From Clostridiales bacterium (GTDB lineage: Bacteria; Bacillota; Clostridia; Lachnospirales; Lachnospiraceae), in the NCBI GenBank assembly GCA_021203365.1, contig JAJQBI010000079.1, forward strand, positions 82,340-139,106: 56,767 nucleotides of DNA. Direction: 5' to 3'. A model generated the notes under the pieces. The model searched no databases, was not told the DNA's origin, and saw nothing but the letters and a program-made list of their open reading frames with translations. Position numbers and translations under genes: made by a program. Shown piece by piece: positions 5,548-19,058 of this stretch. Within the stretch, counting starts at the first letter, position 1. The number at the start of each line of letters is the position of its first letter.

Positions 5548-7173
<1,626 letters not shown>

Positions 7174-7257
7174 TCAATTGCCTCCTGCTTCGTATTTATT
7201 CCCGTATCTGTCTTTGCAGCTGTTCATTTCTTTCACAGCTGCCTGTTATTATTCAGA

Positions 7258-7545
7258 TCAATCTTCCACCAGAGCAAGAATATCGCTCTGCTTTACAATA
7301 ATATATTCATCCTCTCCAAGCTTTACCTCCGTACCGGAATATTTAGAATAAATCACCGTATCACCTGGCTTTACCGTCATCTTTACCTCCTTGCCGTCCA
7401 CAAAGCCGCCCGGCCCAACTGCAATGACTTCCGCTTCCTGCGGCTTTTCCTGGGATCCGGACATCAGGATGATACCGGACTTCGTGGTTTCTTCTGCTTC
7501 GCGCTGTTTCAGCACGACTCTGTCTGCCAATGGTACTAACTTCAT
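7258..7545 (-). CDS. groES: Co-chaperonin GroES (10 kDa)
   Basis: Heptameric lid of the GroEL chamber. The protein starts MKLVPLADRVVLKQ, carries the mobile-loop region (EETTKSGIILMSGS), GPGGFVDGK and the closing IIVKQSDILALVED, and is 95 residues long, the usual size. The ATG at 7545 has AAGGAGGAG 4-6 bases upstream; the open frame that extends to 7626 is untranslated leader. It is the first gene of the operon, with its promoter and HrcA operator about 120-160 bases upstream. Confidence 0.97.
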   Translation of the reverse strand: MKLVPLADRVVLKQREAEETTKSGIILMSGSQEKPQEAEVIAVGPGGFVDGKEVKMTVKPGDTVIYSKYSGTEVKLGEDEYIIVKQSDILALVED

Positions 7546-7665
7546 ATGAGCTCCTCCTTGTTTATTATGCAGGCGCCGATGGGTTCTTCCGTGCAAAACG
7601 AAATGCATGACATGCTTGTTTCGCATATATAAACTCTCTCAGGTGTCATTCTTTTTGTTATACGA

Positions 7666-7694
7666 AATATAGCACATTTATCAGCACTCGTCAA
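7666..7694 (-). promoter_or_regulatory. groESL sigma-A promoter
   Basis: On the minus strand TTGACG (7689-7694) and TATATT (7666-7671) are exactly 17 bases apart. The -35 hexamer lies inside the CIRCE operator, which is how HrcA would block RNA polymerase. Confidence 0.8.
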
Positions 7695-7707
7695 TAGTGA
7701 TTGCTAA
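7681..7707 (-). promoter_or_regulatory. CIRCE operator (HrcA binding site)
   Basis: TTAGCAATC-N9-GAGTGCTGA on the minus strand matches the CIRCE consensus TTAGCACTC-N9-GAGTGCTAA with one mismatch per arm. It overlaps the -35 box of the groESL promoter. Heat-shock repression by HrcA is inferred from this; the hrcA gene is not in the window. Confidence 0.9.
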
Positions 7708-7722
7708 TAATTTATGTTTATT

Positions 7723-8886
7723 TTATATTTTTCCATTTGTTTCAATTCTTTTCAGAGCTTCAAAAAATGTCTTGTACATCAATCCGGAAAATCCTTTCCG
7801 GGCCGAAATTTCGTAATAATCCTCATTGTTCATGGAAAAAAGGACGACCCCTTTATTGCGGGTGTCCATGCGTGAAATTTTTTCTAAAGGAAACACGTAT
7901 TTCCCGACGGACAGATTTACCCGGTTTAACATCAGAGTTCCTGATTCACACAAATGTCGTTTGTGGTCATCCGCAATCCGGAACAGTCTGGCATTCAGGT
8001 CAGAGATTTTAATATTCACACTGCCTTCCACAAGATCTCTCACAAATCCAATCTGCCAGCGGTTCCACTGCCAGATTGTGCGGAATCGGCTGCCTTCGAT
8101 TTTTCCAAAGCCATCATATTCCCAGCTCTTCCCGCATTCAAGGCAGCGAATTTCACTGCCCTTTCCCCTGATTTTTCCCAGAGCGCCACATTCCGGACAG
8201 GCATACAGCACATAGTGAATGCCCTTTGCACCGCGATGGCAGGCCTTTTCGGCGCCTGCCGCAGGCTGCTCCACATACAGATCCCGGTTAAAACGCTCCA
8301 CGATCTCCTCCGGAGTCATATTGTGCAGCATCTCTTTTGTATAAACACCCTTTAGCTTTGCAGAGACTCTGCCTCTGCATAATCTGCTGCTCCACCGCGG
8401 AATAACCTGATAGGCACCGGTCACAGCCACCGTCACAACCGTACAATGCAATGCCCTGAAAAGCTTCCCATTTACAGGGGCCAGGGGTGCCGTAGCTCCA
8501 TCATAAGTAATATTCCCCTCCGCGAACATACAGACATAGTCTCCGGCTTTCAGGCTTCGGGATATCTCAAGAATGGTTCCTGTATTCATTTTCCCTTTTG
8601 AACAGGGAATGCTGCGGAACACATCAACTGCCAGAAAAGCCGCAGCTCTGTGACGAAGCAGGTTCTCTCCCGCAACAAAACAAAGCGGCTGATCCACAGA
8701 CATTGCAACAATCAGAGGATCAAAATAGCAGGTATGATTGACTACCACAAGACAGGGTTCTTTCGGAAGACGGATCTCATCTTCCTTTTTTATTCCAAAA
8801 AGCAGATGACAGGCCGGACCTGCCGCTGCCTTCAATACATGATATAATTTAAAATATCTCCGTTCCTTTTTATTCTTCGTTTTCAT
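7723..8886 (-). CDS. PlsC-type acyltransferase fused to a zinc ribbon and a C-terminal domain
   Basis: Residues about 1-200 form a glycerolipid acyltransferase (1-acyl-sn-glycerol-3-phosphate acyltransferase family) with the catalytic NHX4D box NHTCYFD and the substrate motif FAEGNIT. At about residues 230-260 a four-Cys zinc ribbon follows (CPECG...CLECG), then about 120 residues resembling a PH/GRAM-like C-terminal domain (FPLEKISRMDTRNKGVVLF), which I cannot name with confidence. At 387 residues it is much longer than a plain PlsC (about 240). No N-terminal membrane helix is obvious. The start at 8886 is preceded by GAGTGAG. Its promoter at 9063-9102 matches that of the lipid operon at 17.6 kb, which suggests joint control of membrane-lipid synthesis. 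Confidence 0.8.
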   Translation of the reverse strand: MKTKNKKERRYFKLYHVLKAAAGPACHLLFGIKKEDEIRLPKEPCLVVVNHTCYFDPLIVAMSVDQPLCFVAGENLLRHRAAAFLAVDVFRSIPCSKGKMNTGTILEISRSLKAGDYVCMFAEGNITYDGATAPLAPVNGKLFRALHCTVVTVAVTGAYQVIPRWSSRLCRGRVSAKLKGVYTKEMLHNMTPEEIVERFNRDLYVEQPAAGAEKACHRGAKGIHYVLYACPECGALGKIRGKGSEIRCLECGKSWEYDGFGKIEGSRFRTIWQWNRWQIGFVRDLVEGSVNIKISDLNARLFRIADDHKRHLCESGTLMLNRVNLSVGKYVFPLEKISRMDTRNKGVVLFSMNNEDYYEISARKGFSGLMYKTFFEALKRIETNGKI

Positions 8887-9062: not shown

Positions 9063-9102
9063 GTTACAAATGTGTTATAACTATTACATCCCTGTCTGTC
9101 AA
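9063..9102 (-). promoter_or_regulatory. Promoter and palindromic operator of the PlsC/zinc-ribbon gene
   Basis: On the minus strand TTGACA (9097-9102), 17 bases, TATAAC (9074-9079). The -10 lies inside a palindrome of GTTATAAC-ACA-TTTGTAAC type (9063-9081). The same layout and nearly the same palindrome occur at 17625-17664, with 17 of 19 bases shared. It is a likely repressor site of an unidentified lipid regulator. Confidence 0.7.
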
Positions 9103-9129
9103 GAGTCTGAATCTCATTTTATTTTTTTA

Positions 9130-9171
9130 TTGCTTTTATTTGCCCTTGTGTTATAATTCTTCTATAACACA
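9130..9171 (+). promoter_or_regulatory. Promoter and operator of the cytidylate-kinase-like gene
   Basis: TTGCTT (9130-9135), 16 bases, TATAAT (9152-9157). A perfect inverted repeat TGTGTTATA-N7-TATAACACA (9147-9171) covers the -10 box. Its half-site is also present in the divergent promoter at 9063-9081 and in the one at 17625-17643. Confidence 0.6.
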
Positions 9172-9271
9172 TAGACCTATGCAGACCATACCATATATTT
9201 TTACAGCATGGGAGGTCTGCAAAACTTCAGCAAAAGAATTATATAAATGTAAACACAAATGGAGGTACCCT

Positions 9272-9889
9272 ATGAAACAAATTATCACAATCAGCCGGGA
9301 GTTAGGCAGCGGAGGGCGCACAATCGGAAAACTGGTAGCAAATAAAAATAATATCCCATATTATGACAGGGAATTAATTGATGAATCCGCCAAGATATCC
9401 GGTGTCCCTGCAGAGTACGTTGAAAAATCAGATCAGAAAATCACCAGCAGCTTCCTGTACAACCTTGCTATGGGAACCAGTTACGGCTACGGTATGCTGG
9501 AAGATGCCAATCAGCCGCTTCCCCTAACCACACAGATCTTTTGCGCGCAGCAGAAAATCATCAAAAACTACGCGGATTCCGGAAGCTGTGTCATTGTAGG
9601 CAGGTGCGCCGACTATATCCTCAGAGACCGCAGGGATGTACTCCGTGTCTTTATCTATGCAGATATGGAAAAGCGAATTGAACACAGCGTGAAGGAATAT
9701 GGTATGCCAAAGGCAACTGCCCGCGAAGAAATTGCCCGTTCTGACCGTGAGCGTGCCCGCCACTACAACATGTTTACTGAACAGAAATGGGGAGAGCGGA
9801 CAAACTATGATATCATGTTGGACAGCGGTTCTCTTGGTTATGAAAACTGTGCCCGGATAATCTGTTCCATAGCCGGAATGGACTTATAG
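9272..9889 (+). CDS. Cytidylate kinase-like family protein
   Basis: P-loop nucleoside-phosphate kinase of the cytidylate kinase 2 type (Pfam PF13189-like), 205 residues. It begins MKQIITISRELGSGGRTIGK, whose GSGGRTIGK part is the phosphate loop; later motifs are YYDRELID, VIVGRCADYILRD and the lid region ARSDRERARHYN. These proteins are paralogs of, not replacements for, the housekeeping Cmk, and their substrate is usually unproven. The ATG at 9272 follows GGAGG with 6-bp spacing; the upstream-open frame to 9005 is leader. It is divergent from the acyltransferase at 7723-8886, and their control regions share the TGTGTTATA half-site. A role in CDP-activated lipid-precursor supply is a guess from context. 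Confidence 0.75.
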   Translation: MKQIITISRELGSGGRTIGKLVANKNNIPYYDRELIDESAKISGVPAEYVEKSDQKITSSFLYNLAMGTSYGYGMLEDANQPLPLTTQIFCAQQKIIKNYADSGSCVIVGRCADYILRDRRDVLRVFIYADMEKRIEHSVKEYGMPKATAREEIARSDRERARHYNMFTEQKWGERTNYDIMLDSGSLGYENCARIICSIAGMDL

Positions 9890-9969
9890 GAATACCTGAT
9901 ATTTCTGTTGTACGTTCGGGTTAAAAAGTTCACAGATGCCGGATGAGCCAGCTTCTTTTCATAACCCAC

Positions 9970-9997
9970 GCCTGGCAGCTCTCTCAAGCTGCCAGGC
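9970..9997. terminator. Perfect 11-bp hairpin between convergent gene ends
   Basis: GCCTGGCAGCT and AGCTGCCAGGC form an uninterrupted 11-bp stem with a 6-base loop. It sits between the kinase-like gene (+) and the radical-SAM remnant (-). The T-tract is weak on both sides, so the termination strength is uncertain. Confidence 0.5.
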
Positions 9998-10031
9998 ACT
10001 TCCTCAATCTTTATAAAAATGCAGTGGAGGA

Positions 10032-10392
10032 TCAGCCGAATTTCCATTTTGTGTGCCGGAGTCGATAATAAGATGTATTTTTCACGTTTGACATAAGACG
10101 CGCAAGGCACACCCCCAGCCGTGACACAATCGACAGTCCGACCCGTCTTCTTCCATACTCTGCTCCGAATTTTTCTCCGATAATTTTAGCGGATCTGAAA
10201 TCGTAAAAATACAGATTTGCTTTATAAAATTCCTCCTGAAGATCCCATGGGGACATATTTTTCGGCTGGAAGGTAACATTCATCATATCAAACTGTTCCC
10301 AGCTGCTGTCAAGCATACGATGTTCCCGCTGCATATCTTCATAGACAGGTGTTCCCGGATACGGTGTCAGAATTGCCGGCTGCAGCTGATGT
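10032..10392 (-). pseudogene. C-terminal remnant of a B12-binding/radical SAM protein
   Basis: About 120 residues of the C-terminal end of a radical SAM protein remain. The frame runs LQPAILTPYPGTPVYEDMQ and then NMSPWDLQEEFYKA, both typical of the end of the TIM barrel and the start of the tail in the B12-binding-domain radical SAM group. An in-frame TGA at about 10393 and unrelated sequence upstream cut it off; no CxxxCxxC cluster motif remains. An intact relative would be about 450-600 residues. It lies just beyond the 3' end of the PlsA-like gene and is probably decaying. Confidence 0.7.
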
Positions 10393-10422
10393 TTTCAAAT
10401 TCACATTTTTTATTTTCACCGT

Positions 10423-13400
10423 TTAAGAAACCTTTCTGCCCGTTTCTTCCGGACTGTGGTTCATAATCAGCATCTGCAGCCGGTTCTCCACATTCGCATA
10501 GCTGGTGTCGGGATCGAGGTCAAGGGGCAGAATCGAGATATCCGGATACTCCTCCTTCAGCCGCTTGATGACTCCGCGTCCGCAGACATGGTTCGGCAGG
10601 CAGCCGAAGGGCTGCAGGATAATAAACGACTTCACGCCGGCCTTTGCGTTGTGCGCAATCTCCGCTGCCATCAGCCAGCCTTCTCCGCAGCTCAGGGTTT
10701 CAGGGATAATGTCGCTGACTTCCCGGTACAGTTCTTTCGGTTTTTTCGCGCATTCATAAAGCTCATGACGGACAGCGTTCTTCTCCAGCTGCTTCTGAAC
10801 ATAGTCGAACAGCCCCTCCACCAACTGTGGATAGGGCGGAATGCTGGCATGGTAATCCCGGATCTCACACTCGGTAGCGCGAAAATCCTTCCGCAGCTGA
10901 TCGGTGATCCGGGGGAATGCCGTCTCCATGCCGTTGGCTTCCAGGTACCGCTCAATATTGAAATTAGACCCGGGATGATAGGTCACCAGCAATTCTCCTG
11001 TGACGAACACCTTCGGTTTTAAATGACTCCGGTCGCAGGGAATCTGCCCCATCCGGTCAATGCAGGTCTCAAAGACCTTTCTGGCGTTTTTCACACCTTT
11101 GCGAATGCCCTCCGCCAGCCGGTTCACACAGTCATTGTAAACCTCGTCCGTCTCACCCGGACAAAGCTCGTAAGGACGAATCTTCCGGCAGATGTCCGTG
11201 AGAATATCCAGCATCATAAAGGTCCAGACTGCTTCCCAGATGGCGGAAATTCCGAGAATCATCACACCCGGGTGCATATCCTTCGTGTCATTGGCATCTG
11301 TGGTTACAATGGGAACCTCGGTAAAGCCGGCCCGGTCCAGGCCCTTCCGCAGAAGCCCGGCATAATGGGACATCCGGCAGTCACACTGGAATTTCACCAT
11401 GGCCACCGCCACCTCGTCCTGCCGGTAGTTTCCTCTCTGCAATTCGCTGATAAGTTCCCCGATCACCATCTGACACGGAAAACAGATGTCATTATGGACA
11501 TATTTCTTTCCAAGAGCGATCTGCTCCGGCCCGCCGATGGGCAGGGTTTTCACGGTGTAGTTTTCCTTCTCCATAATGGCAGAGAGCAGCACGGATACTT
11601 CTCTGGAAATGTTCGGCACCAGGATCGTGCGCCGCTTCCGGTCGTCCTTATGAAATTTCGCGGGACTCGGCTCGGACAGTTTTCCCCTGAAAGGTTCCAT
11701 GCATTCCCCTTTGTGTTCGTTTCTGCGCTTAATCGCAATCGTCTCCAGGAACGACTGGATACGGATGCCAAGAGATCCGGCGGCATCACTCTCGTCCACC
11801 TTGAGAATCAGCGGAGACTTGTGGCCGCACTCTGCCAGAATCCGGCTGATCTCATCTGACAGGATTGCGTCATGTCCGCAGCCAAAGCTGACAATCTGCA
11901 CATATTCCAATGCCGGATCCTTTGCCGCCGCCATCGCACCCTCCAGCATCCGCGTGTGGAAGTCATTGGTAATTTCGATTCTGGTATTTTTCAAATCCTG
12001 TTCACTAAGACCTGGCAGGCTGTCCACAGTCAGCACGGGGATACCGCGCTCGGTGAACCGCCGGGACAGATCATGACAGATAAAGGGATCGGTATGATAG
12101 GGCCGTCCGGCCAATACCACCGCATATGTGCCGGATTCATGGGCCTTGCGGATGATCTCACTGCCCCGGCGCACCAGCGTTTCCCGGAAAGACAGAAGCG
12201 CCTGTTTCCCATCTTCGAAAGCAGCCGCGGCCGCGGCTTTCGTCACACCCAGGGTCTCCACCGCATAGCTGCAGATCTGCTTTTTCCGATCTTTTTCCTC
12301 AAACCAGTGAAACACCGGTGTGTCAAAGACAAGATTCCCCTCTTTCTCCGGATTCTGGGAATTGCGCACAACCATCGGATATCCCTGCAAGACAGAACAG
12401 ACATACGGGCTGAGCTTGTCTACTCCCTCCGGAGGCATATGCATCACAAAGGGGAAAAAGATGCGGTCTGCCCCCGTCCCGGCCAGATCCATAATATGCC
12501 CGTGAACCAGTTTTGCCGGAAAACACACCGTATCCGACGCCACGTACTGCAGCCCCTGTTCGTAAAGCTTCCGCGAGCTTTTGTGCGAAAACTTTGTCTG
12601 ATAGCCCAGAGCCCGGAAAAAGGTATTCCAGAACGGCATACTGTCCCAGAATTCCAGAACCTGGGGCAGACCGACCACCTCTCCTTTATCCGGGGACACC
12701 TGATGATATGGATAGTCTGCAAAAAGCAGAGCTTCGCGCTCCCTGAACAGATCTGCCGGCTTCTCCGAATGCCTTTCCGACACAATCGGCTCTCCGGCTC
12801 TGGACATCCGATTCTCTTCAACTGCCGCTCCCTTCTCACAGCGGTTGCCGGACACCCAGGTTTTTCCGGTGGAAAAGGTAACGATCGTGCGGCTGCACCG
12901 GTTTCCACAGCCGGTACACTGCACACCGCTCTGGGTCTCATAGGAAAATTTCTCCAAGGCATCAAATCCAATAAATGAAGAACCGTTTCTCTCCGGACCG
13001 CCCATCTCCGTTATCTGACGTTTCACCTCCAGAGCCGCGCCGATGGCTCCCATCTCCCCCGGATAAGGCGCCAGCTTCACTTCCGTCCCCAGATATTCCT
13101 CCAGCGCACGCAGCACCGCCTGATTGCGGAAGGTGCCGCCCTGCACAACAACATGATTTCCAAGCTGGCTCGTATCTGAAATACGGATGACTTTCGTAAA
13201 AACATTCTCAATTACAGAACGGCAGAGTCCGGCCATTATATCGTCCGGGCCTTTTCCGTTTCGCTGCTCCGTAATGATCGTACTGTTCATAAACACCGTA
13301 CACCGGCTGCCAAGCTTTGCCGGCGATTCAGAGCGAAAGGCCGCCTCCCCAATCTCATCCACCGGTATCTGCAGGCCGGAGGCAAAATTCTCCAGAAAGG

Positions 13401-14823
13401 AGCCACACCCGGACGAACAGGCTTCATTCAGCATGATATTTGTGATAATACCGTCCTTAAGCCAGATTGCTTTCATATCCTGACCGCCGATGTCCAGCAG
13501 GAATGTGGTTTCCGGATAATAATGGGCACAGCCCACGGCATGAGCCACTGTCTCGACCGTATGATAGTCCGCGCCAAATGCCCGCGCTAACAGGTTTTCT
13601 CCATATCCGGTCGTGCCAAGCCCCAGAATGTGGAGGTGAATACCCTGCGCCTCATATTTTCGATTCATTTCGACCAGGCCGTCCCGTACCACCAGCAGGG
13701 CTTCTCCTTTGTTGGGAGCATAAAAGCGGTCAACCACCTGCCCTTCTTCGTTTAACAGAACAAATTTTGACGTAGTGCTTCCGGAATCAATGCCCAGCCA
13801 GACCCGCAGCTCTCCCTTCACCGGTTTCGGTGTACAGACCTCATACAACTCCCGGCCATGTCTCTCCTTAAACCGCTTTTTTTCTTCCGGGGAGACGAAA
13901 AAAGGCCTCGTCTTTTCATCTTCTGCCAGAGGAATTTCATCCGCATCCTTAAGCCTCTCTGTCAATTCCTTCAATGTGACAATATCCGATTCATCCTCCT
14001 CCGGAAAGATCGAATCAATGGAAATGGCTGTCCCATAGGCTACAATCGTTTCCGGATGCTCCGGGCGCACAATATCCCCACTTTTCAGTCCAAGCCTCTT
14101 TGCATAGGTCTTGATCAGGGTCGGATTGAAGGTCAGCGGTCCTCCCTCGAAAATAATGGGCGGTGCCAGTTCCAGTCCCTGCGCCAGGCCGCCAATGGTC
14201 TGTTTTGCAATGGCATGAAAGGTGGACAATGCAATATCCTCCTTTTTTGCCCCGGAAAGCAGCAGCGGCTGAATGTCTGTCTTTGCAAACACGCCGCAGC
14301 GGCCGGAAATATCATAGACAGTCTTACCCTGAGACGCCAGAGATTCAAATTCTTCTGTCTCCACATTCAGAAGCGCCGCCACCTCATCGATAAAGGCGCC
14401 AGTACCGCCGGCACAGCTTCCATTCATCCGCATATCAGAGGTCTGCAGCTGTTTTTTCTGTTCATCATAATAGAAAAACACGATCTTCGCATCCTGGCCG
14501 CCAAGTTCGACGGCGGTTTTCACCTGAGGATATAACACCCGGACTGCGGCCGAGTTGGCTACAACCTCCTGTATGTAATGAACACCCAGCTTTTCGGCAA
14601 TCGTCCGGCCTCCGGAACCGCAGACCGCCGCCCGGAACAGACGGTCTGGATATTGCTCCTTTGCTTCCGCAAGCAGCTCCCCAACCGTCTCCTTTTGTCT
14701 TGCATTATGCCGCACGTATCGCGCGTAAAGCACATCCTGCGTTCCGGCATCCGTGATCACCACTTTCACGGTTGTGGAACCCACGTCGATTCCAATTCGG
14801 AGCTCTCTGTTCGTACCTTCCAC
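10423..14823 (-). CDS. PlsA-like anaerobic plasmalogen synthase homolog (fused BadF/BadG activase x2, DUF2229, 2-hydroxyacyl-CoA dehydratase-like)
   Basis: A 1466-residue cytosolic iron-sulfur protein. Residues 8-270 form one ASKHA activase domain (GIDVGSTTVK, GGQDAK, cluster Cys at 137 in NGSCAGGTG and 176 in GRCGVF). A second begins near 341 (GIDSGSTTSK, EACSSGCGS, GSRCTVF). Then come a CTGCGNRC cluster-like motif, DUF2229, and a dehydratase-like part with TVCFPAK, DICFPCQ and QCDCRMSHYAG. This domain order matches the protein shown in Clostridium perfringens (PlsA) to be needed for making vinyl-ether plasmalogens; that link is from memory of the family. GTG start at 14823 with GAGGAAG upstream. 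It is the last gene of an operon with two acyltransferases and a GT8, which supports a membrane-lipid role. A 2-hydroxyacyl-CoA dehydratase is the alternative. Confidence 0.85.
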   Translation of the reverse strand: MEGTNRELRIGIDVGSTTVKVVITDAGTQDVLYARYVRHNARQKETVGELLAEAKEQYPDRLFRAAVCGSGGRTIAEKLGVHYIQEVVANSAAVRVLYPQVKTAVELGGQDAKIVFFYYDEQKKQLQTSDMRMNGSCAGGTGAFIDEVAALLNVETEEFESLASQGKTVYDISGRCGVFAKTDIQPLLLSGAKKEDIALSTFHAIAKQTIGGLAQGLELAPPIIFEGGPLTFNPTLIKTYAKRLGLKSGDIVRPEHPETIVAYGTAISIDSIFPEEDESDIVTLKELTERLKDADEIPLAEDEKTRPFFVSPEEKKRFKERHGRELYEVCTPKPVKGELRVWLGIDSGSTTSKFVLLNEEGQVVDRFYAPNKGEALLVVRDGLVEMNRKYEAQGIHLHILGLGTTGYGENLLARAFGADYHTVETVAHAVGCAHYYPETTFLLDIGGQDMKAIWLKDGIITNIMLNEACSSGCGSFLENFASGLQIPVDEIGEAAFRSESPAKLGSRCTVFMNSTIITEQRNGKGPDDIMAGLCRSVIENVFTKVIRISDTSQLGNHVVVQGGTFRNQAVLRALEEYLGTEVKLAPYPGEMGAIGAALEVKRQITEMGGPERNGSSFIGFDALEKFSYETQSGVQCTGCGNRCSRTIVTFSTGKTWVSGNRCEKGAAVEENRMSRAGEPIVSERHSEKPADLFREREALLFADYPYHQVSPDKGEVVGLPQVLEFWDSMPFWNTFFRALGYQTKFSHKSSRKLYEQGLQYVASDTVCFPAKLVHGHIMDLAGTGADRIFFPFVMHMPPEGVDKLSPYVCSVLQGYPMVVRNSQNPEKEGNLVFDTPVFHWFEEKDRKKQICSYAVETLGVTKAAAAAAFEDGKQALLSFRETLVRRGSEIIRKAHESGTYAVVLAGRPYHTDPFICHDLSRRFTERGIPVLTVDSLPGLSEQDLKNTRIEITNDFHTRMLEGAMAAAKDPALEYVQIVSFGCGHDAILSDEISRILAECGHKSPLILKVDESDAAGSLGIRIQSFLETIAIKRRNEHKGECMEPFRGKLSEPSPAKFHKDDRKRRTILVPNISREVSVLLSAIMEKENYTVKTLPIGGPEQIALGKKYVHNDICFPCQMVIGELISELQRGNYRQDEVAVAMVKFQCDCRMSHYAGLLRKGLDRAGFTEVPIVTTDANDTKDMHPGVMILGISAIWEAVWTFMMLDILTDICRKIRPYELCPGETDEVYNDCVNRLAEGIRKGVKNARKVFETCIDRMGQIPCDRSHLKPKVFVTGELLVTYHPGSNFNIERYLEANGMETAFPRITDQLRKDFRATECEIRDYHASIPPYPQLVEGLFDYVQKQLEKNAVRHELYECAKKPKELYREVSDIIPETLSCGEGWLMAAEIAHNAKAGVKSFIILQPFGCLPNHVCGRGVIKRLKEEYPDISILPLDLDPDTSYANVENRLQMLIMNHSPEETGRKVS

Positions 14824-14845
14824 TCAAAAACTTCCTCTCTGCGAT

Positions 14846-15718
14846 TCACAGCGCATCTTCTTCAGGCGGTATCCATCCTGCAATATCATCGGTTTTAAAA
14901 TCATATGTGAGCGTTTCTCCATAGGCCTGCTCATAGGCAGCGACCTTCTGCTGATAATCCTGCCGCATCATTTCCTGACTGTTCTCCCTGGCACTTTTAT
15001 CCGGATCCGGATAAATGGGCTTGAGGATATGCATCACATACCGGGTTTTATGGAATTCTTCATTTTCTTTGCCCGGAAGATCCCGGATCTCCACAAAACA
15101 GGAAATAACCGGAACATGATTGACTGCCGCGTAATAATAGGCCCCACGTTTGGGCGGACGGGGTTTCCGGTAATGAAACCACATCTCCTGCTCCGGGTAG
15201 ATCAGAATGGCGTCTCCATGCTTCAGCCGTTCCCGTATCATGGGGCCGAAATATTTGCGCAGATATTCGGAATGATTCACCAGCGGAATGATGTCCTCAT
15301 GATTCATCAGAAAACCAATCCACCCTTTCATGGCCAGATTCGTCTCCTGACTGACGATGAACAGCCGCCGATAGCCGGCCCGGTTTATCGCCTTCCGCAC
15401 CACCGTATTATCCAGAGGGCTGAAATGGTTGCTGGTGACAATCGCCCCTCCATGAATTTCTTCTATATTTTCCAGTCCTTCAATCCTGGTATCCCGATTC
15501 AGCCATCTGGTAGCCGTGTCTGTCAGCGCCCGCGCGCAGATATTGCAAAACCAGTATCCAAAGGTCTTATAATTTTCCAGGTAATGCCGGACGATCTTCT
15601 CCCGCTCTTCCTGGGGCAGAACCGGATCGTCCGTCTCCACCTTACAGTTCAGATCTCCCCTTCTGGCGGCAGACCTCATATTGGCAATTACCTTTTCTTT
15701 ATTTCCGCCGATCAACAT
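14846..15718 (-). CDS. PlsC-type 1-acylglycerol-3-phosphate acyltransferase family protein
   Basis: 290-residue glycerolipid acyltransferase with the catalytic box NHFSPLD (NHX4D), FIVSQETNLAMKG, and the second motif IYPEQEMWF. A conserved N-terminal stretch (MLIGGNKEKVIANMRSAA) precedes the catalytic domain. It probably acts at the inner face of the membrane. It overlaps the stop of the upstream GT8 gene by 7 bases, so the two are translationally coupled, and the PlsA-like gene follows 22 bases downstream. It differs clearly from the other two PlsC-type proteins in this region, so the three probably have different acceptor or acyl specificities. Confidence 0.85.
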   Translation of the reverse strand: MLIGGNKEKVIANMRSAARRGDLNCKVETDDPVLPQEEREKIVRHYLENYKTFGYWFCNICARALTDTATRWLNRDTRIEGLENIEEIHGGAIVTSNHFSPLDNTVVRKAINRAGYRRLFIVSQETNLAMKGWIGFLMNHEDIIPLVNHSEYLRKYFGPMIRERLKHGDAILIYPEQEMWFHYRKPRPPKRGAYYYAAVNHVPVISCFVEIRDLPGKENEEFHKTRYVMHILKPIYPDPDKSARENSQEMMRQDYQQKVAAYEQAYGETLTYDFKTDDIAGWIPPEEDAL

Positions 15719-16680
15719 ATGCGTATATTTTCCCCTTTCTCAAACATTTTGCGAAAGGTAACCTCCTGTGCACACACTCTGGGACCCTTTGCGATCATGT
15801 TTTCAAGGCAGGCCCGATCCGATTTCTTCTGTTTTTCCGGATATTCTTCCTTAAAACGCAGGATATCCGGATAAAAAGGTGATTTTTCCGCGTAATACCA
15901 GAAATATTCCTCATATGGAATCTCATCATAGCACCAGGGCTTCTGGAACAGATTGTAATGAATCAGCTTTGGTTCCTGAAGGATCTCATTTTCCTTTCCG
16001 CCCATTGGCGGCATGGCATCCCATGTCTCATCCAGATAGACAATTTTGCCGCTGCACATCGCATTGATATAATCCTGATCGGGAGCAAGACAATCAAAGT
16101 GAAATGTATGCAGCAGCCGGAGGAAATGATCGCAAAAACCCACTTCCCGCATCTTTTTCAGGTTCATCAGCAGAATACCGGAATTGATATACCGGTCAAT
16201 CGGTACACCGACCGCGTTCTCTACATACTCCACCAGTTCGGGGACCGGCACGATTGAGCGGTCCGCACAGGCTCCGATCATATTGTCTCCCAATTCCACC
16301 CGGTACAACTCAGAAATATCGCCGGGCACCACAATATCGCTGTCAAGATAAATGCCCTTCTCATACTCAGGGAAACGGTCAGCAATAAACAGCCGGAAAT
16401 AAATGGTCAGCGTAAAATAATCACACCGCAGCCGGTTTTCGGTCCGGTCGGTAATGCCTGCCAGCTCTTTTTCCATAGGGACAAAACAGATTTCAAATGG
16501 TGCACGCACACCGGAAGCAATCTTATCCCGGCTCTCTTTCGTCAGATCCTGATGCAGGACGATGATCTGATACCTGTACGCTTCAGACGCGTGCTCTTCC
16601 ATCGAGCGAATGGCGCAGTCCAGCCAGGGAGCATAGCTCTCGTCCGTTGTAAAAAAAATAGGAATTACCGTTTTTTCCAT
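15712..16680 (-). CDS. Glycosyltransferase family 8 protein
   Basis: 322-residue retaining sugar-nucleotide glycosyltransferase. It starts with IPIFFTTDESYAPWL, has the metal-binding DxD site in YLDSDIVVPGD at about residues 112-122, then YINSGILLMNLKKMRE and DQDYINAMCSGKIVYL, all standard GT8 marks. GT8 members use UDP-Glc or UDP-Gal. Because it lies between two lipid acyltransferase genes and before the PlsA-like gene, a lipid-linked acceptor is my inference. It follows the upstream acyltransferase by 27 bases and overlaps the next by 7. Confidence 0.88.
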   Translation of the reverse strand: MEKTVIPIFFTTDESYAPWLDCAIRSMEEHASEAYRYQIIVLHQDLTKESRDKIASGVRAPFEICFVPMEKELAGITDRTENRLRCDYFTLTIYFRLFIADRFPEYEKGIYLDSDIVVPGDISELYRVELGDNMIGACADRSIVPVPELVEYVENAVGVPIDRYINSGILLMNLKKMREVGFCDHFLRLLHTFHFDCLAPDQDYINAMCSGKIVYLDETWDAMPPMGGKENEILQEPKLIHYNLFQKPWCYDEIPYEEYFWYYAEKSPFYPDILRFKEEYPEKQKKSDRACLENMIAKGPRVCAQEVTFRKMFEKGENIRIC

Positions 16681-16707
16681 AGTAGAATCATCCTCTCAAT
16701 TCTGTCA

Positions 16708-17580
16708 TTACAGCAGTATATTCCTGCCCAAAGCTTTTTCCTCCCGGCTGCTCTCTTTCCGGTATTGAATATATTCGCAGGTATTTTCCCGGCTGCGGGA
16801 TTCCATACAGGCATAGATCCTGTCATGCAGCTCCGTCTGCTGTTCCCGTTTATTCCTGCCCGGTTCAGGAAAAAAAGGTCCGTCAATATAAACGACTATT
16901 TTCGGTTTTCTTCCATGCTTCCGCTGCCGGTAAGTTGTCGTCATACAAAAGGCAGGCACATTGTACAGCACCGGAAAGCGAAATGCCGTGGACTGAAAAG
17001 GCCGGATGAACGTACACCAGGGCCAGACATGAGCTTCCGGGTAAATGACAATGCAACGTTTTTTCTCCAAATGATACTGAACCGCCTCCATGAACTTCTT
17101 CATCTGTCCCATGGAATCCGGAATAAACAGACCACCCAGCATAGGGAGAAGCTTCCCGATTATCGGAATCCCCAGATTCGACGGACTGGCAATCGCGCTC
17201 ATCCGCATGGGAAAGCAATACAGAGCCGGGCCGAATACGTCCCCCATGGGCTGCGTGTGGTTTCCGTATAAAAAGCAGCCCGTTTTACCTGCTTCCTTCA
17301 ATACTTTCCTGTTTTTCACGTGAATATGCAGCACCAGTTTGCCATAAATCAGTGCAAATATCAGCGCAACACAGTAAAGCGCCGCAGACATCAGGCGATA
17401 AAAAATATTTTTGTGTATCCAGCGATAACCGTCCGGCAGGGTTTCATCCTGACGGGCACTTTTCACAAAATCATCCGTATAATCCCGATAATAGTATGTG
17501 GTTCCACCCCGCTTCGCACTCATCTGCCTGATACCACCTGCACCTTTTTGCATCTGTTCATCTTTATCCTTTTCCATCAT
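16708..17580 (-). CDS. PlsC-type acyltransferase, first gene of the lipid operon
   Basis: 290-residue acyltransferase with a hydrophobic N-terminal anchor (IFYRLMSAALYCVALIFALIYG, roughly residues 56-75), the catalytic box NHTQPMGD and the motif IYPEAHVWPW. Thr/Gln/Pro within the box resemble other clostridial lyso-lipid acyltransferases. The ATG at 17580 lacks a strong ribosome site; other in-frame Met codons exist at residues 2 and 10. It is the first gene of a four-gene operon (acyltransferase, GT8, acyltransferase, PlsA-like) read from the promoter at 17636-17664. Confidence 0.82.
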   Translation of the reverse strand: MMEKDKDEQMQKGAGGIRQMSAKRGGTTYYYRDYTDDFVKSARQDETLPDGYRWIHKNIFYRLMSAALYCVALIFALIYGKLVLHIHVKNRKVLKEAGKTGCFLYGNHTQPMGDVFGPALYCFPMRMSAIASPSNLGIPIIGKLLPMLGGLFIPDSMGQMKKFMEAVQYHLEKKRCIVIYPEAHVWPWCTFIRPFQSTAFRFPVLYNVPAFCMTTTYRQRKHGRKPKIVVYIDGPFFPEPGRNKREQQTELHDRIYACMESRSRENTCEYIQYRKESSREEKALGRNILL

Positions 17581-17624
17581 CTGACTTTTGTATTCGTCCC
17601 TTCATGCAGAAGGATATCAATTTT

Positions 17625-17664
17625 GTTACAGATGTGTTATAGCACTTATTGTTAGCCATGTCAA
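17625..17664 (-). promoter_or_regulatory. Promoter and palindromic operator of the lipid operon
   Basis: On the minus strand TTGACA (17659-17664), 17 bases, TATAAC (17636-17641). The -10 is inside the palindrome at 17625-17643, which shares 17 of 19 bases with 9063-9081. This is the likely target of one repressor acting on both acyltransferase transcription units. The integrated element to the right starts beyond the -35 box, so the promoter was left whole. Confidence 0.75.
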
Positions 17665-17849
17665 GGTTTGAGTGCTATTTTTTTTCTTTCACTTTTTTGC
17701 TCTTTTCTCGGAAACGTTGAATCTACGCGGTTTTTCGGGCATCCGGGCATCTTTTTTCGTCCTTCAAAAGTAGTGATTTTCCGGGTTTTACGCCATTTTT
17801 ACGCCATTTGCGAATTTAAATATAAATCCGCGGTTTCTGCCCATCAGTT

Positions 17850-19058
17850 TCAGCCTGCCATAATCTCGTCAATCCGGTCAAATTCCTTCCTGATCCGTTC
17901 CTTGCCGGTGATGTGGTTGTAAACCTCCATGGTCACTGCGATGTTGGAATGTCCCATTATATACTGCAGAACTTTTGGATCGAAACCACTTTCCGCCATT
18001 CTCGTACATCCAGTATGCCGGAGGGTATGGGCTGAAATTGACGGCATCAGGATTTCCTTGCGCCTCTGCTTCTGAGCTGCTTTCAGTTCTTCCCGATTGT
18101 AGGCGTTCACAATATTATACAGGACATTATTCAAAGCATTCGGCATGATGGGTGTCCCGTTTTTCGTTGTGAAAATGAATCCCTTGCGTCCCTCAACTTC
18201 TACAGTACGGTCGATTCCAGTCATCATCTGGTATTCCCGTTGTTTCAGGAAAGCCTTCTTAACAGAGCTTGTCATGGGAATTGTCCGGACTCCCGCATCA
18301 GTTTTCGGTTCCTTCAGGTGGAATTTATAACCATCGCCGTAATTTTTGTAAACAAGCTGATGATCAATGGTCACCTCTCGGTTCGCAATGTCAATATCAT
18401 CCCAGGTCAAACCGATCAGCTCGCCAGCTCTCACTGCAGTTCCAACCATAACTTGGAGAAGAGGGAGATAGTTGCTGTAAATCCCATTTTCCACGAAAGC
18501 AAAAATGGCTTCCTGATCTTCTACAGAAAGGGCTTCTTTTTCCTTCGCCTCCCTGCCATAATCGCCAAGTGTACGGACTGCCGGATTTTTCCTGATGATA
18601 TCATCCTCTACCGCCATGCCAAATGCAGGGAGCAACATCGTATGCAGATACTTGATTGTGCTTCTGGCATATCCTTCATTAGACATTTTGGCATACAGCG
18701 CTTTGATGTGCGAAGGCCGTACCGTGACTACCTTCATCTTTCCAAGATCATCCTCAACGTGATATTTCCACATAGCCATGTAGTTAGCCCGCGTTGTTTC
18801 ATCCAGCTTGCGGATAGACATATAACGGTTAAACAGCTCGTTCACATCCATTTTCTTTACATCCGCTGTGGATATAATTCCATCTTCCTGATCTTTCAAA
18901 ATCTCTTTTACCATCTCCCGGAGTTCTGCCAGATCCATGCTGTAGATGGCCACACGCTTTCCTGTGCGCTTGTCTGTATAGCGGTAGTCGTATCTTCCGT
19001 CTGCCCTTTGCGATTCCCCTGTTCGTAAATTCCTGCCACGGTTATCTTTTCTTGTCAT
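17850..19058 (-). CDS. Tyrosine recombinase/integrase of a Tn916-type element
   Basis: 402-residue site-specific recombinase. Residues about 1-60 resemble the Tn916 Int arm-binding domain (DGRYDYRYTDKRTGKRVAIYS). A core-binding SAM-like domain follows (about 70-165). The catalytic domain carries the first Arg in GTAVRAGELIGLTW, the HTLRHTG box, and MGHSNIAVTMEVYNH with the His and the nucleophilic Tyr. The ATG at 19058 has GAAAGGA upstream. It lies at the left end of the element next to its excisionase, as in Tn916, so the chromosomal junction should be in 17665-17849. Confidence 0.93.
   Translation of the reverse strand: MTRKDNRGRNLRTGESQRADGRYDYRYTDKRTGKRVAIYSMDLAELREMVKEILKDQEDGIISTADVKKMDVNELFNRYMSIRKLDETTRANYMAMWKYHVEDDLGKMKVVTVRPSHIKALYAKMSNEGYARSTIKYLHTMLLPAFGMAVEDDIIRKNPAVRTLGDYGREAKEKEALSVEDQEAIFAFVENGIYSNYLPLLQVMVGTAVRAGELIGLTWDDIDIANREVTIDHQLVYKNYGDGYKFHLKEPKTDAGVRTIPMTSSVKKAFLKQREYQMMTGIDRTVEVEGRKGFIFTTKNGTPIMPNALNNVLYNIVNAYNREELKAAQKQRRKEILMPSISAHTLRHTGCTRMAESGFDPKVLQYIMGHSNIAVTMEVYNHITGKERIRKEFDRIDEIMAG

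Follow-up and report, generated by a model that had tools for sequence, protein, structure and literature searches.

A promoter repeat shared by chaperone and membrane-lipid genes as a putative operator of a heat-shock-type regulon in a Lachnospiraceae bacterium

The stretch of DNA analyzed here, 56,767 nucleotides of contig JAJQBI010000079.1 from a Clostridiales bacterium of the family Lachnospiraceae (assembly GCA_021203365.1; hereafter the window), contains groES-groEL, an acyltransferase gene beside it (acyltransferase gene A), a cytidylate-kinase-like gene (CK2), and an operon (the B operon) with two acyltransferase genes (AT1 and AT3), a family 8 glycosyltransferase gene (GT8), and the gene of a PlsA/PlsR-like protein (PlsAR; Table 1). 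Three promoters of this region, those of acyltransferase gene A (site A), the B operon (site B), and CK2 (site C), carry the element with which this work is concerned, a 19-bp inverted repeat, GTTATA-N7-T(A/G)(T/G)AAC, that is positioned on the -10 of sigma-A-type promoters, either in the source genome or in close relatives.

The initial annotation of this DNA had described promoters A and B as having the same -35 (TTGACA), spacing (17), and -10 (TATAAC), with 17 of 19 bases of the repeat in agreement, and had placed a third copy on the -10 of CK2 (9147-9171); each of these features was found where it had been reported. The core letters are GTTATA-ACACATT-TGTAAC at A, GCTATA-ACACATC-TGTAAC at B (one arm base off), and GTTATA-ATTCTTC-TATAAC at C, where the repeat covers an extended -10, TGTTATAAT. 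Taken alone, the symmetry of A and B appears weak; once relatives are compared, A, B, and C emerge as one element, GTTATA-N7-T(A/G)TAAC. In the source genome, whose 84 contigs amount to 3.13 Mb at 84% completeness, exact copies of TATAACACATNTGTAAC are found at A and B only, and among the 12 genomic TATAACACAT places, a TTGnnn lies 17 bases upstream only at A, at B, and at the right arm of C.

The initial annotation had proposed conservation upstream of orthologs as a check. A scan of genome contigs with an AT1 alignment kept 80 loci, ten of which come from metagenome-assembled genomes titled Lachnospiraceae or Clostridiales (73-87% identity). In 8 of these 10 close relatives, CTTGAC-N17-TTATAACAC precedes AT1, with a right arm of varying quality, so the element of the B operon is indeed kept; it is absent before AT1 at loci L192 and L196. 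Orthologs of acyltransferase gene A (60-86% identity) were found in 9 of the 12 genomes asked, and site A precedes those of G655 and G657. At L271 (G651), the stretch from C to A has seemingly been lost, perhaps because one repeat recombined with the other, and a single site is left before the acyltransferase gene. GTTATA-N7-TATAAC also lies upstream of the CK2 orthologs of G657 (88%) and G650 (90%).

The length of the center was controlled on 90 loci that had been retrieved with protein queries rather than with the motif (1.12 Mb, of which two or more loci overlap). With ≤2 mismatches, a seven-base center gave 14 matches, compared with 14 for eleven other spacings together (mean 1.3). At least 10 of the 14 N7 matches are AT1 or acyltransferase A promoters, and at least two others look like chance. 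Of the 43 sites collected, 38 have C as the center base; these sites are related by descent and were chosen by search patterns that left the center free. Based on the conservation in relatives and on the spacing control, which together are decisive, we conclude that the shared repeat at A, B, and C is a real, conserved element.

The source genome and 10 relatives were scanned for the promoter form of the element, TTGACA-N15-GTTATA-N7-TRKAAC. With ≤2 mismatches, 82 matches were obtained (one G656 site being counted on both strands) as opposed to 5 for the reversed pattern, a control that destroys the promoter too; in the source genome alone, the same scan gave 10 matches and 0 for the reversed pattern. 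At ≤1 mismatch there were 41 matches, 35 of which precede seven gene families: hsp20 (13), PlsA-like (7), AT1 (6), clpB (3), acyltransferase A (3), GT8 (2), and dnaJ (1). Assignment to these families was by tblastn for 34 and by comparison of orthologous loci for the AT1 promoter of L193. The other six comprise two at contig ends, two before the same membrane-protein-like open reading frame (ORF), one before an ORF that we take to be aquaporin-like, and one that is unassigned. Outside the window, the source genome has the element before genes for a DnaJ-like protein (contig C79, 0 mismatches), Hsp20 (C41, 1 mismatch), and ClpB (C19, 2 mismatches), all with Pfam support. The chaperone genes behind the repeat are thus hsp20, clpB, and, in the source genome, dnaJ, and those on the lipid side are PlsA-like genes, the acyltransferase/GT8 operon, acyltransferase gene A, and CK2. 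A genome scan for lipid genes had been suggested by the initial annotation: PlsA-like and acyltransferase promoters were matched, but the best matches lie more often before hsp20 than before any other family, and no fab gene was recognized by eye among the source-genome matches whose downstream ORF was read, no scan having been aimed at fab promoters.

At L303 2968 (G653), lon and an L25 (Ctc-like) gene diverge from a region that holds a perfect GTTATA-N7-TATAAC, and the palindrome is also present before L25 genes in G650, G658, and G659; L25 and Lon were assigned with Pfam at one locus each and the other L25 ORFs by eye or position, and the sites followed up are part of the palindrome matches.

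The signal emerges only with promoter context. In the source genome, TATAACACATNTGTAAC with 3 mismatches has 27 matches and its control 28; none of the 25 places besides A and B has more than 4 of the 6 bases of a -35, and none of the 14 downstream ORFs read by eye there was recognized as a lipid gene. Across 392 genomes of the order, exact TATAACACATNTGTAAC was found in 3 genomes (the source genome included), with 2 control matches. Combined with the -35, it had no match in a collection of genome contigs, outside which the source genome possibly lies.

A second inverted repeat often stands next to the element. This is CIRCE (controlling inverted repeat of chaperone expression), the operator of HrcA, given as TTAGCACTC-N9-GAGTGCTAA in PMC7464140. 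In the window it covers the -35 of groESL, and a putative, weakened copy lies over that of promoter B, where 14 of 18 bases agree and 0 of 200 shuffles were as good. Among the 41 best matches, CIRCE lies over the -35 at all 13 hsp20 and all 3 clpB sites with 1-4 mismatches in 18, and the hsp20 and clpB promoters of the source genome have 1 mismatch each. At the AT1 promoters (n = 6), CIRCE has between 3 and 10 mismatches (3-4 in G650 and G655; 7-10 in G652, G656, and G659) and the other repeat stays. Because CIRCE varies while the GTTATA-N7 repeat is retained, the new repeat is the common element and CIRCE is optional.

An integrative element that carries a Tn916-type integrase ends directly beside the left CIRCE arm of promoter B (window positions 17679-19058). 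A similar element end of ∼130 bases occupies the corresponding position upstream of AT1 in L193 and upstream of hsp20 in L307, L298, L302, and L313; the integrase itself is present in L193, in L307, and in the window. Heat-shock promoters with CIRCE thus seem to be where elements of this family insert. The idea that the promoter is borne by the element was rejected, as the promoter is also present without it.

The repeat spans the region from the -10 to about +7, and this is a position at which a repressor would act; the initial annotation had likewise read the palindrome as an operator. Judging from the sequence comparisons above, the shared repeat is probably the operator of a heat-shock-type repressor, whose regulon would have recruited lipid genes. 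A putative repressor X on the repeat would block RNA polymerase, HrcA would block the -35 where CIRCE is intact, and the two together would make a two-lock promoter. Heat, solvent, or other protein-damaging stress would release both repressors, so that chaperones and membrane-reshaping enzymes acting on ether lipid, acyl chains, and perhaps glycolipid would rise together. We propose more tentatively, as a possibility of somewhat less than even weight, that a clade-specific and as yet undescribed heat-shock repressor binds GTTATA-N7-TATAAC, often next to CIRCE, and jointly controls chaperones (Hsp20, ClpB, DnaJ, and possibly Lon and L25) and ether-lipid/glycolipid remodelling in Lachnospiraceae. 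The link by one operator between acyltransferase, kinase-like, and PlsA-like genes that the initial annotation had drawn is retained here, but its lipid-only regulon is not, the element being commonest before hsp20, occurring also before clpB and dnaJ, and often being accompanied by CIRCE. Similarly, the undescribed repressor it had suggested may exist, but it would then govern a stress response and not just the synthesis of ether lipids.

Several results weigh against such a regulon. Part of the difference between 82 matches and 5 is plain promoter signal; the left arm of the repeat is the -10 itself, so that only the center, the right arm, and the GT ahead of the -10 are independent parts; and sites from related genomes do not count as independent. 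In the 11 genomes, the 12-base palindrome by itself shows no enrichment (97 places with ≤1 mismatch, compared with 154 for the control), and other or unassigned genes lie downstream of four of the 41 best matches. No CIRCE above shuffles was found at A (best copy with 9 mismatches, 188 of 200 shuffles as good), at C (8 mismatches, 93 of 200), at dnaJ of the source genome, or at the PlsA-like promoter of G651. The acyltransferase A orthologs have a site in 3 of 9 genomes, one of which is a deletion derivative, and no site was found at those of G650, G652, G654, G658 (with just 188 bases upstream), G660, and G661. When AT1 and acyltransferase A homologs farther away were scanned (∼400 bases upstream, less at contig ends), the refined element was found before AT1 in 0 of 15 other genera (27-56% identity, tblastn), and the element was found at 0 of 29 distant acyltransferase A homologs (L128-L156, 25-62% identity), the ortholog in G142 (62-63%) being likewise without it; for CK2, of whose many more matches 29 further loci in the genus were covered, it was found at 0 of 29. 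Since the more distant homologs examined are without the element, the lipid genes seem to have joined the regulon in one clade. In addition, no common regulator was recognized among the ORFs that neighbor the source-genome copies of hsp20, clpB, and dnaJ, where a LysR-type gene adjoins dnaJ only, and no regulator gene was recognized among those around the window operon, except in or beyond the integrative element.

Other explanations of the repeat were weighed against the same data. A likeness of A and B that arose by chance or by promoter duplication would be no surprise from the window alone, in which, by an estimate from base counts, a 16-of-17 match is not rare when all of the 57 kb is compared with itself, but it is refuted by conservation and is extremely improbable: the position is conserved over orthologous promoters, and the spacers and leaders of A and B are unlike, which argues against a fresh duplication. 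A regulon of lipid genes only, under an undescribed repressor of ether/plasmalogen synthesis, would explain why all three window sites precede lipid or lipid-adjacent genes and why PlsA-like genes have their own copy of the element in 7 of 10 relatives. It is already largely refuted, and we regard it as very unlikely, because hsp20 is the largest class of best matches and because dnaJ, hsp20, and clpB of the source genome carry the element; the fab result given above, with its limit, points the same way. Alternatively, there may be no repressor site, and the conserved TATAAC...TAGAACAAAGGA would represent a promoter together with its initially transcribed sequence, kept because it sets the strength of the promoter or the choice of start site, or because stress genes need it as a leader. 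The left arm does always coincide with the -10, and AGAACAAAGGA or AGAACAAAAGA is common to most hsp20 sites downstream, yet this explanation is improbable, as both arms are kept in another promoter frame (TTGnnn-N16-TATAAT) at CK2 and L25, and A, B, C, and PlsAR have unlike leaders.

A further explanation, compatible with a heat-shock-type regulon and less remote than the preceding ones although still unlikely, is that the binder is a heat-shock repressor already known, whose site has drifted, either an HspR-like MerR protein with an N7 inverted repeat or CtsR. The set of clpB, hsp20, dnaJ, and perhaps lon resembles the regulons of HspR or CtsR. The HspR-associated inverted repeat (HAIR), CTTGAGT-N7-ACTCAAG (PMC7464140), has equal spacing. 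However, at all eight promoters tested, the best HAIR had 5-6 mismatches in 14 and 51-156 of 200 shuffles were as good, so that the N7 spacing alone agrees; at the same eight, the consensus used for the CtsR box, a direct repeat, had 4-6 mismatches, with 52-200 of 200 shuffles as good. The shared repeat differs from CIRCE, HAIR, and this CtsR box. The initial annotation had seen no match of the motif to the FapR or FabT consensus. Additional candidates were set aside. A CcpN-like box gave nothing useful among the matches listed; a PhoP-type direct repeat with an 11-bp period was rejected, the left GT being kept while the bases before the right arm vary in the collected sites; HxlR autoregulation was rejected, the neighbors being unrelated; and a TetR gene beside one hsp20 was dropped, as it did not recur at the remaining hsp20 loci listed.

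The genes of the window bear on what the lipid branch of this regulon would contain (Table 1). Fused BadF-type activase and DUF2229 domains are the defining domains of PlsA/PlsR, and PlsAR has a BadF-type activase domain fused to DUF2229, as expected of a plasmalogen synthase; by its family, it is a putative plasmalogen-forming protein. Two more full-length PlsAR homologs are encoded in the source genome (G000 C20:92886-97325, 51%; C39:32982-37169, 36%), and a PlsA-like protein has at least a partial match in 41 of 41 genus genomes searched, the source genome included. The AT1-GT8-AT3 arrangement, with or without PlsAR, recurs in several genera; in relatives and in several other genera there is a second GT8-like match between the acyltransferases, where the window has one GT8. 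The motif of such acyltransferases usually has four residues between H and D, and the AT1 family has an invariant NHT...D with five (9 sequences aligned). Acyltransferase gene A encodes a stretch that, as read from the sequence, we take to be zinc-ribbon-like. In G654 its counterpart lies directly 3' of the PlsA-like gene, and in G650 one ORF, presumably of a short-chain dehydrogenase type, stands between the two. In more distant relatives (L128 and L187 of G142, L275 of G661), the acyltransferase A gene is 3' of another gene, which we take to resemble DUF1836, a possible DNA-binding protein. The genes that we take to be groES-groEL were named from the likeness of their translations. A short ORF between CK2 and the PlsA-like gene (10032-10334) has no Pfam match and presumably resembles a residual C-terminal part of a radical SAM protein.

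Table 1. Coordinates of promoter elements and genes discussed, in positions of the window
Feature	Positions	Strand	Remark
Putative operator A, GTTATAACACATTTGTAAC	9063..9081	-	over -10 of acyltransferase gene A
Promoter A, TTGACA (9097-9102), N17, TATAAC (9074-9079)	9074..9102	-	
Putative operator B, GCTATAACACATCTGTAAC	17625..17643	-	over -10 of B operon
Promoter B, TTGACA (17659-17664), N17, TATAAC (17636-17641)	17636..17664	-	
Putative operator C, core GTTATA-N7-TATAAC	9150..9168	+	over -10 of cytidylate-kinase-like gene
Putative operator C, longer form, TGTGTTATA-N7-TATAACACA	9147..9171	+	perfect 9-base inverted repeat, 7-base center
CIRCE over -35 of groESL, TTAGCAATC-N9-GAGTGCTGA	7681..7707	-	2/18 mismatches
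Putative weakened CIRCE over -35 of promoter B, ATAGCACTC-N9-CATGGCTAA	17652..17678	-	4/18 mismatches
groES-groEL (ORFs 7258-7626 and 5548-7170)	5548..7626	-	beside gene A
Acyltransferase gene A (PF01553), called LPLAT387	7723..8886	-	family search
CK2, cytidylate-kinase-like gene (PF13189)	9272..9889	+	family search
PlsAR, PlsA/PlsR-like fused protein, 1466 residues (BcrAD_BadFG, DUF2229)	10423..14823	-	
AT3, second acyltransferase of B operon (PF01553)	14846..15718	-	
GT8, glycosyltransferase family 8 gene of B operon	15712..16680	-	
AT1, first acyltransferase of B operon (PF01553)	16708..17580	-	

A shared operator would offer a concrete, testable link between the heat-shock response and plasmalogen regulation. 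If the proposal is true, membrane composition would be a direct output of the protein-damage response, and a second operator would have been added to HrcA-type heat-shock promoters. In PMC7884928 (2020), anaerobic plasmalogen synthesis and its regulation are named as an open question for clostridia, butanol shock is described as raising heat-shock genes, and a stabilizing effect of plasmalogens on the membrane is proposed. Among the open-licence papers surveyed, mostly at the level of listings, there was no report of lipid genes under a heat-shock operator of this kind.

Among known systems close to this one, class I control by HrcA is similar in that CIRCE covers the -35 of the window's groESL and, both in the source genome and in relatives, that of hsp20 and clpB, with a putative weakened copy at B. 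The difference is that A, C, and the tested PlsA-like promoter are without CIRCE, whereas all sites share the second, unrelated repeat. In Clostridium acetobutylicum, the HrcA targets given in the passages of PMC3828012 consulted are hrcA-grpE-dnaK-dnaJ, groESL, htpG, and CAC2705, and no lipid gene is among these four. The CtsR (class III) regulon, for which that source names hsp18 and Clp genes as targets, has a similar target list, but the box does not rise above shuffles here. In Campylobacter and Helicobacter, HspR and HrcA act in co-control, with two inverted repeats on one heat-shock promoter, one of them CIRCE-like; in C. jejuni, the cbp and clp promoters are among those with HspR sites (PMC7464140). 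Those promoters resemble the ones described here in carrying two different inverted repeats and in the N7 spacing, but the arm here is GTTATA and not CTTGAGT, no HAIR match exceeds shuffles, and lipid genes are among the putative targets. Finally, control of a plasmalogen gene has been proposed in PMC9702350, which likewise concerns the regulation of a lipid gene, whereas the link drawn here is to heat-shock promoters.

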